From Proteinivorax hydrogeniformans (GTDB taxonomy: Bacteria; Bacillota; Proteinivoracia; Proteinivoracales; Proteinivoracaceae), in the NCBI RefSeq assembly GCF_040515995.1, contig NZ_CP159485.1:372001-436000 (forward strand): a stretch of DNA of 64,000 nucleotides. Direction: 5' to 3'. This document shows positions 50,975 to 52,649 of this stretch, one piece after another. The position numbers and the translations under genes were made by a program. Position 1 is the stretch's first letter; every line of letters starts with the position of its first letter. The notes under the pieces were generated by a model. The model did not search any database. It was not told the DNA's origin and was given only the letters and a program-made list of their open reading frames with translations.

Positions 50975-51142
50975 ACTGGATAAAACCGCAGGGCTTTATA
51001 CTTGTTGTATTTACCCTGAGAATAATCGTTAAAACCCAGGTGACACAAGGGACTGGTATGCTGTCACCGAAGATGGCTACCCCCAATTGACCCCCAATTA
51101 ATGCGCCCAAATGATGCTCCCCAATTGACGACCCCAATGACT

Positions 51143-51238
51143 GTAGGGGAGCAGTACCTGCTCCCGCACCTAACGTCCGCGCCCCAAAGCGGACAGCTAC
51201 TGAGGTCCCAAACTGGTATCAAATCCAGACCCCGATGA
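51143..51238 (+). repeat. Repeat family B, copy 1
   Basis: About 96 bases starting GTAGGGGAGCAG and ending near CCCGATGA, with inner hairpins GGGGAGCAG/CTGCTCCC and GTCCGC/GCGGAC. A near-identical copy is at 51761-51858. Confidence 0.85.
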
Positions 51239-51329
51239 CAAAATCAAGATGGCCCCCTCGAAGAGGTAGGGGGCGACCTCAGTGTCGCCCCATCAGTAGA
51301 TGGCCAGCGAATATGGACGCATTTAATAT

Positions 51330-51534
51330 GTCAGTTCAGGATTAGCATATATTTCCGGGTTTGTAAGAAGCCTGGGCTGTTTCTCCACATGTTCGACATC
51401 TTTAACTTTGAGTCGACATTGTCATGTCTCTGACGTTAATGCAAGCCAGCTCAAAGTCAAAGCCTTACTCACAGGGAGAAAAGACGCCGCCTTCAATCAA
51501 CCCCTCCAATATATAGCAAATCCTTCAGCAGAGG
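51330..51534 (+). repeat. Repeat family A, copy 1
   Basis: About 205 bases from GTCAGTTCAGG to CAGCAGAGG, nearly identical to 52235-52439 with only about four differences seen by eye (GG/AA and CC/AT changes). Confidence 0.9.
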
Positions 51535-51722
51535 AAAAACCCAAATGCAGGGGTCTCAGGCTGACCCCAGACCCCACTAACCTAATTGGCCACGAAAACG
51601 TATAAATAAGCTACATGCTGGGACTAGGATCTAAAGATTTGAAATACTGAACTGATGCTGGGACTGAAGCCCAAAGTAGCTTGTCATTCTGAACGAAGTG
51701 AAGAATCTATGAACTTAAATAT

Positions 51723-51758
51723 GTTAGTTCAGGATTAGCAATATATCTCCGGGTTTGC
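51723..51758 (+). repeat. Repeat family A, 5' fragment
   Basis: Only the first 36 bases of family A (GTTAGTTCAGGATTAGCA... to GGGTTTG) are present, directly followed by family B copy 2. The junction shows that the two families recombine or insert next to each other. Confidence 0.75.
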
Positions 51759-51760
51759 AC

Positions 51761-51858
51761 GTAGGGGAGCAGTCTCCTGCTCCCGCACACAACGTCCGCG
51801 ACCCAAAGCGGACAGCTACTTGAGGTCCCAAACTGGTATCAAATCCAGACCCCGATGG
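51761..51858 (+). repeat. Repeat family B, copy 2
   Basis: About 98 bases matching 51143-51238, again with GGGGAGCAG/CTGCTCCC and GTCCGC/GCGGAC hairpins. The loop sequences differ slightly while the stems are kept. Confidence 0.85.
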
Positions 51859-52234
51859 CCCAAATGCAGGGGTCGGTCTTTTAAAATTACCTTTCCTGAA
51901 CTGTAGAAAGTTAATTTTGACAGGCTGACCCCACACCCCAAGTGAGAAGTGCAATGGCCACGGCGTACAGCCGTAATAATATGCAGCTTAATAAAACAGT
52001 GCCTATATTTTAGACCTTCTGCATTTAAAACCGGGTCCTTCCAAATATGGTTATCTAATATGAATGGGTTTGGACCCAGCATGTAACTTATTTCGTAATC
52101 TTTACCGTGGCTAATTAGTATTTAGTATTTGGCAGTTAGCAGGTGGTAAAAGCAAATACTGCCAGGCAGAACAAACCGCTCCTGATATCCTGTCCAACTA
52201 ACCAACTAACCAATTGACTGCTGCATCTAGCACC

Positions 52235-52439
52235 GTCAGTTCAGGATTAGCATATATTTCCGGGTTTGTAAGAAGCCTAAGCTGTTTCTCCACATGTTCG
52301 ACATCTTTAACTTTGAGTCGACATTGTCATGTCTCTGACGTTAATGCAAGATAGCTCAAAGTCAAAGCCTTACTCACAGGGAGAAAAGACGCCGCCTTCA
52401 ATCAACCCCTCCAATATATAGCAAATCCTTCAGCAGAGG
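52235..52439 (+). repeat. Repeat family A, copy 2
   Basis: Second full copy of the 205-base element, in the same direction, 905 bases after copy 1. Confidence 0.9.
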
Positions 52440-52599
52440 GAAGACCCCAATTGACAAAACCAAGGGACAATGGGGACTGCCGTACCTGTCCCCTCTGTCC
52501 CGAAGATAGGACGCTCGATAGTTTTAACGATAGTTAAACTATTGTTAAACAATTGCTTAGCCATCGCTAGACCATCGTTAAAATGAATGGGTTTGAACG

Positions 52600-52646
52600 A
52601 CCAACTGACCAACTAACCAACTAACCAACTAACCAACTAACCAACT
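52600..52646. repeat. 8-bp tandem repeat (CTAACCAA)n
   Basis: Five or more units of CCAACTAA-type sequence directly after the radical SAM stop codon (minus strand); a shorter run of the same unit lies at about 52194-52214. Confidence 0.85.
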
Positions 52647-52649
52647 TAT

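Follow-up and report, generated by a model that had tools for sequence, protein, structure and literature searches.

A mosaic of hairpin-forming, probably mobile repeats with GTAG-headed REPs in an intergenic island of Proteinivorax hydrogeniformans

Introduction

How did a gene-free stretch of duplicated, palindromic sequence come to lie between two genes of Proteinivorax hydrogeniformans? The stretch occupies positions 51000-52649 of the window, by which we mean the whole analyzed segment of 64,000 nucleotides (positions 372,001 to 436,000 of contig NZ_CP159485.1); unless given in kb or with a genome handle, coordinates of the island refer to it. An earlier note, based on the sequence alone, proposed a non-autonomous mobile element, a retron-like or other structured RNA locus, or the debris of an insertion. 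The explanation that we favor, and consider fairly probable, is that the island was assembled as a composite from non-autonomous mobile repeats that form hairpins; in it, modules B and E are REPs of the RAYT type and element A represents a separate family, and all of them may have moved as single strands. Below, G000 denotes this genome (2,833,627 bases, one contig), G001 the only further member of the genus in the set of relatives sampled (the sister species), and G002 a member of the family.

Results

Composition and module map of the island

The island has a GC content of 0.457, versus 0.368 for the whole window, and contains no genes; the longest open reading frame overlapping it (bacterial code, from a start codon) has 88 aa and is made of repeats. 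Its description as a gene-free, GC-richer region with duplicated elements (45.7% vs 36.8%, no ORF above 88 aa) is thus borne out. The flanking genes are convergent. One, ending at 50867, we take from its protein sequence to encode a TetR-family protein, and the other, ending at 52650, presumably encodes a radical-SAM-like protein; the island starts beyond the terminator-like hairpin of the former. Neither promoters (4 vs 3.1 expected) nor terminators (3 vs 2.3 expected) are in excess in the island. The following features, all on the + strand, were mapped.

50929..50975, +: terminator-like hairpin after the TetR-family gene (from sequence and island layout)
51143..51237, +: module B, copy 1, REPIN-like with a tail; GTAG-headed REP at 51143-51165 and inverted REP at 51175-51200 ending in CTAC
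51251..51316, +: module E, second GTAG REP type, with the GTAG hairpin at 51266-51291
51330..51546, +: element A, copy 1, long imperfect hairpin of subfamily A1
51557..51577, +: module C (right arm)
51578..51675, +: module F, with partial complementarity to module H; could be a terminal inverted repeat of another element
51680..51713, +: module J, short palindrome of the TCATTCTGAACGAAGTGAAGAATCT type
51723..51757, +: third copy of A, of which the left arm precedes the interrupting B
51761..51857, +: module B, copy 2
51867..51935, +: module C, a long palindrome with a z of -4.38 when folded as RNA; the complementary strand of its right arm has GGGGTCAG
52019..52125, +: module H, with partial complementarity to F
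52190..52213, +: module I, short tandem repeats with an 8-base unit (CCAACTAA)
52235..52451, +: second copy of element A, at 97% identity to the first
52463..52505, +: module D, a palindrome whose complementary strand carries GGGGACAG
52521..52583, +: module G (inverted repeat I1), with degenerate repeats of the AACAATAGTTA type
52600..52646, +: module I, 5.9 copies of the 8-base tandem repeat ACCAACTA

The 205-base element that had been reported twice is real and corresponds to the two A copies (217 nt, 97% identical), and the reported 97-base pair corresponds to the two B copies (94% identical). The 36-base fragment can be refined: B was inserted into an A copy, and the fragment is the left arm of that copy (51723-51757).

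Modules F and H look like the two ends of another inverted-repeat element, and both orientations of F face each other at L049:2061-2200. The terminator-like hairpin (AAAAAAAGGTTCC...GGAACCTTTTT type, window 50899-50983) recurs in the genome in both orientations, at L037, L042, L043, L044, and L047. Elsewhere in the window, an 18-base tandem repeat in 5.4 copies occupies 18926-19023.

Two readings can be set aside at this point. A retron should have a reverse transcriptase gene beside msr-msd, and here no overlapping ORF exceeds 88 aa, far from reverse transcriptase size, and Rfam yields no match at the gathering score; the retron-like proposal is therefore abandoned. A tRNA-linked locus or a known RNA is rejected as well, since the 64,000-nt window contains no tRNA and no Rfam match at the gathering score (best sub-threshold match, E 0.022). 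At seven loci with A or RAYT genes, only tRNAs reached that score.

The island as part of a genome-wide mosaic

Nearly the entire island recurs elsewhere: 1568 of its 1650 bases were found in a comparison of 24 stretches of this genome. The whole island has 210 matches in G000, 82 in G001, and 9 weak ones in G002, and element A has 37 in G000; the repeats are not a product of chance. The search of the genome and its relatives that had been called for thus returned many copies, and the elements are neither restricted to this site nor, as detailed below, devoid of structural conservation. Ten loci of G000 show a similar succession of ten modules (A-J). The block D-D-B-C-F-E-A forms two tandem runs at 462.8-464.2 kb, followed by a third, variant run. 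Such ordered repetition does not fit the debris of one insertion, the third proposal of the earlier note. By a crude ORF calling with a minimum of 90 aa, all 18 annotated A loci of G000 are intergenic, the gaps measuring 0.6-2.6 kb; at one of them, L041, an open frame within the gap overlaps A copies.

The modules are also nested. The order A 1-36 / B / A 44-88, truncated in the window, is observed at four other loci (464616, 486755, 505221, and 527381). Here B replaces approximately 7 nt of A, and another insert takes the place of part of A after position 88. The common junction and the replaced part of A imply that some modules entered A once and that the composite then spread, either by recombination or as a unit. 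Target-site duplications, sought by eye at nested junctions and at junctions with the sister species, where flanks have diverged, were not seen.

Comparison with the sister species

The region 422-576 kb of G000 was compared with 425-610 kb of G001. It contains ten A loci, three of which (463, 516, and 527 kb) lie in rearranged segments and seven in collinear ones. Four of the seven collinear sites are near-empty in G001: the site of the island itself (152 nt vs 1783 in G000) and three others (9, 71, and 95 nt vs 1358, 1604, and 1771). Two more are shorter (532 and 900 vs 2141 and 2085), and one is of similar size (1305 vs 1635). At this last site, which has islands in both species (G000:C1:537705-539340, G001:C1:529405-530710), the A copies are on opposite strands, pointing to separate insertions or to an inversion. 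At 496 and 546 kb, the terminator-like hairpin of the upstream gene is followed directly by the island. Gain in G000 is a simpler reading than loss in G001, and the sister sites would then represent the pre-insertion state. At two loci of the sister species (L061 and L053), tandem A copies lie just upstream of what appears by eye to be the promoter region of a ribosomal RNA operon.

Modules B and E and the RAYT-type genes

Module B opens with two palindromes joined by a linker, the first preceded by GTAG and the second followed by CTAC; the two are inverted and have outward GTAG heads. In the fold, GTAG pairs with CTAC, and the two together close two hairpins. Over 22 copies, pairing is retained in 99.5% of 396 cells; no pair has changed on both sides, and the one-sided changes all give G-U on the + strand, albeit at only six pairs. 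The statement that loops differ more than stems holds for this element, with 10 of 792 stem cells off the majority versus 53 of 484 in loop and linker (22 copies). The exact GTAG pattern of the B hairpin occurs at 33 places in G000, at one in G001, and at none in three other genomes of the family; the reversed control gave none. The E pattern is found 22 times in G000 and five times in G001 (control, none), in two compensated versions, GGGGGCGAC...GTCGCCCC and GGGGTTGAC...GTCAACCC. When E is folded alone, the REP hairpin is not the minimum.

Both modules have a 5' GTAG followed by a short palindrome and a copy number far above chance. B is a pair of inverted REPs, and REP arrays surround the RAYT genes of the sister species. 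Judged by these sequence features, B and E are GTAG-headed REPs, and B is REPIN-like.

The sister species has a RAYT gene at locus L109 that scores 125.6 bits with NF047646 (cut-off 80) and matches TnpArep in PDB (4er8, E 8.7e-8); it sits in an array of GTAG REP pairs. A RAYT-like gene at L112, at 76.7 bits just under the cut-off of 80, is embedded in an E-type REP array. Tandem arrays of REP pairs extend on both sides of the two RAYT-type genes (L109:600-2900, with a period of approximately 183 bases, and L112:900-2500). Both arrays look like young REP factories. G000 has no intact RAYT above the cut-off, its best intact Y1 gene scoring 76.6 bits; it retains a RAYT-like relic that is interrupted by stops, shares 31% identity with the L112 protein, and has a B-type REP within it. 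From these genes and arrays we infer that RAYTs moved B and E. At another locus of G000 (L048, G000:C1:2259577-2262906), an intact gene for a 333-aa Y1 transposase-like protein lies between two inverted copies of a transposase gene that we take to be IS110-like.

Element A: a conserved long hairpin

Full-length copies of A number 20 in G000 and eight in G001 and form three subfamilies. A fourth, A4, was recovered with a covariance model of the core (R1) in nine copies in G000 and two in G001, with three weak partial matches in G000; it is divergent in sequence and has kept the fold. Subfamily A1 is confined to 423-561 kb. The subfamilies have in common a terminal helix, inner helices, and a core helix, and the unpaired stretches are strongly conserved. 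Most copies have the ends GTCAGTTCAGG...CCTTCAG; the left end motif is missing from three A4 copies and varied in several others. The terminal inverted repeats are approximately 17 bp long, and the element is non-coding and within 70-300 bp, as in MITEs. A GTAG head with a short palindrome is absent from A, which starts with GTCAGTTCAGG and forms a 200-nt hairpin. Hence A is not a REP; apparently, it represents a separate, undescribed family of approximately 200-nt hairpins. At the A loci examined, no transposase gene lies between A ends, and an autonomous partner of A was not found.

The covariation analysis that had been proposed shows helices kept through changes on both sides. Over 28 copies, 91.3% of cells are paired, and both partners have changed in 16 of the 50 pairs (105 cells; the covariation score is 0.183), whereas slid controls reached at most six pairs, 20 cells, and 0.069. 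Among 500 shuffles, the pair count was attained in eight and the covariation score in none; the number of further pair types did not exceed that of the shuffles (500 of 500 reach it). These counts lean towards the A1 structure, because it was partly hand-drawn from folds of single copies and arms, and they include about four rows misaligned by one base in the right arm. Taken by itself, subfamily A2 has such two-sided changes in 14 of its 56 pairs (slid controls, at most three), and one of its inner helices exists in several compensated versions (pairs 40-168, 41-167, and 43-165). Folding z-scores of four copies are -2.36, -5.79, -3.15, and -1.44; as the folding energy of some copies is weak, the case for the fold rests on covariation.

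The asymmetry between G-U and A-C mismatches, tried as a guide to the folded strand, gave no consistent answer. In A1-A3, 18 pairs have A-C and seven have G-U, so that an apparent 8 vs 47 in cells shrinks to 7 vs 18 in pairs; in A4, where the fold is biased to that strand, the relation is reversed (six pairs with A-C, 15 with G-U).

The distribution of A is narrow. With stricter filters, the covariance model matched two of 299 sampled genomes of the phylum, both from this genus, and A is absent from 11 of 13 genomes examined from the class. The 21-base core motif has no match in viral contigs and one exact match among named genomes, in a Verrucomicrobia MAG; this match was dismissed, being about what chance gives for a 21-base pattern (estimate 0.5) in a genome that the A model does not match.

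Orientation relative to replication

For the most part, the GC skew has a positive sign up to 1.26 Mb and a negative one from 1.276 Mb on, which places the terminus near 1.3 Mb, as judged only by the skew sign at sampled loci and with exceptions in the repeat-rich stretches L044 and L049. To the left of approximately 1.3 Mb, nine E copies are on the + strand and two on the - strand; to the right, all 11 are on the - strand. With the terminus there, 20 of 22 E copies agree with replication, clustered copies being dependent. A behaves similarly: 17 of 18 loci below 1.3 Mb are on + and two of three above are on -, so that 19 of 21 agree (p ~2e-4 if the loci are independent; the count leaves out a lone fragment at 516685, on +). 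At the six loci below 1.3 Mb that have A on + and a neighboring gene in the opposite orientation, A does not keep to the direction of that gene. The bias of the B pattern is weaker (24 of 33), as expected of a pair of inverted REPs.

Passages of PMC6006769 describe Y1 transposases as acting on the lagging-strand template. With GTAG on + in the first half of the chromosome, the E hairpins lie on this template, and from this we infer single-strand movement coupled to the fork.

Discussion

Origin of the island

The mobile origin proposed in the earlier note appears largely right, given the dispersed copies, the near-empty sites of the sister species, the GTAG-REP anatomy, and the RAYT-type genes in the genus. 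In the scenario that we favor, the repeats would have piled up in one intergenic spot, between the terminator of the TetR-family gene and the convergent radical-SAM-like gene. B and E would be GTAG REPs of the kind moved by RAYTs, single-strand (Y1/HUH) relatives of the IS200 transposases. At the replication fork, A may likewise have been transferred as a single strand of DNA, with a RAYT or a Y1 relative as the enzyme. The mosaic could have been made later by tandem duplication, insertion of modules into modules, and recombination. The single orientation of A and E relative to replication would be expected if Y1/HUH transposases move them at the fork.

The main competing explanation, which we regard as unlikely, is that A functions as a structured RNA, either in trans or as a cis-regulator, and merely happens to be multi-copy, the islands being clusters of RNA genes. 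Changes on both sides in 16 of 50 pairs (28 copies) and in 14 of 56 in A2, the strongly conserved unpaired stretches, and the persistence of the fold in the divergent A4 are all what such an RNA would show. Thus, the part of the structured-RNA proposal that concerns conservation of structure in A stands firmly, whereas its assignment to RNA does not follow, as these tests do not separate RNA from single-stranded DNA. Against an RNA speak the ordinary numbers of promoters and terminators in the island (4 vs 3.1 and 3 vs 2.3 expected), the GU/AC asymmetry without a consistent strand (A1-A3 vs A4), and the presence of A in only two of 299 genomes; dispersed copies with differing flanks and near-empty sister sites look like mobility.

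It is still less probable that A is a classical MITE of a DDE transposon whose parent was lost, with inverted repeats recognized as double strands. The discrete ends GTCAGTTCAGG...CCTTCAG, the ~17-bp terminal inverted repeats, and the non-coding length of 200 nt agree with a MITE, and coupled changes of the arms could follow transposase specificity. However, the inner helices covary too, including pairs 40-168, 41-167, and 43-165 of A2, no target-site duplication was seen by eye, and a MITE is not expected to have an orientation bias. Finally, segmental duplication, gene conversion, and tandem expansion between old repeats with no active transposition would account for the common A 1-36 / B / A 44-88 junction at four loci, the tandem module blocks, and the confinement of A1 to 423-561 kb, but are very improbable as the only processes, as islands lie between different genes, near-empty sites exist, and RAYT-type genes are found inside REP arrays in the sister species.

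Returning to single-strand movement, a bolder version can be offered as a speculation that is possible and rather doubtful: A would be the first representative of a class of transposable elements, single-strand hairpins of 200 nt, in which the whole element is the recognition structure, compensatory changes give rise to subfamilies, and insertion with fixed fork polarity seeds oriented hairpins between genes.

Relation to known repeat systems

Modules B and E share the GTAG head, the short palindrome, and the intergenic tandem arrays with the GTAG REPs, BIMEs, and REPINs of RAYTs, as presented in parts of PMC2817692 and PMC3733652. In the same accounts, inverted pairing of REPs is shared by B, and RAYT-type genes within arrays are shared by the sister species. 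The islands differ from these systems in that the two REPs of B are unlike palindromes and occur intermingled with other repeats and a family of 200-nt hairpins. Mixing of REPs itself is already known, because a section of PMC2817692 describes hybrid BIMEs of Stenotrophomonas, in which REPs of two RAYTs are mixed.

The TIR repeats of TIRYT tyrosine transposases, described in a portion of PMC3733652, provide another parallel. Like them, A and C are longer palindromes unrelated to GTAG REPs, and C and D carry a motif that, read from the sequence, fits the GGGGWSAS given there. In contrast to the TIRYT system, no TIRYT gene flanked by these repeats was found, and the ends of A do not have the motif. 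A motif search with too strict spacing returned no long C-type palindromes. The small dispersed repeats of Nostoc and the modular BOX elements are nested, modular intergenic repeats too.

Bacterial MITEs (RUP, NEMIS, ERIC, and others, as covered in part of PMC3733652) are, like A, 70-300 bp long, non-coding, and intergenic, with inverted repeats at the ends. A differs from them in being a hairpin over its whole length with inner covariation, in being oriented relative to replication, and in showing no visible target-site duplication.

Descriptions of RAYT-REP systems come mainly from Proteobacteria in the parts of PMC3733652 and PMC2817692 consulted; the phyla named in the Results passage of PMC3733652 do not include Firmicutes, a word that occurs 0 times in its main text and denotes the group in which we place this genome. 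For the A-type 200-nt hairpin, no description was found in the literature on mosaic, small dispersed, and clostridial repeats and on RAYT-REPIN systems in Firmicutes, a body that included few subscription papers. What has no counterpart in that literature is the 200-nt covarying hairpin as a partner of REPs.

These islands add another lineage, one in which REPs of two types occur together with arrayed RAYT-type genes and a family of covarying 200-nt hairpins in the same islands, and the two species provide REP biology with a natural series of filled and near-empty sites. Should A have moved as single-stranded DNA, its covariation would testify to selection for the folding of single strands outside RNA, and the flip of orientation near the terminus would be a direct, testable genomic signature of fork-coupled transposition.
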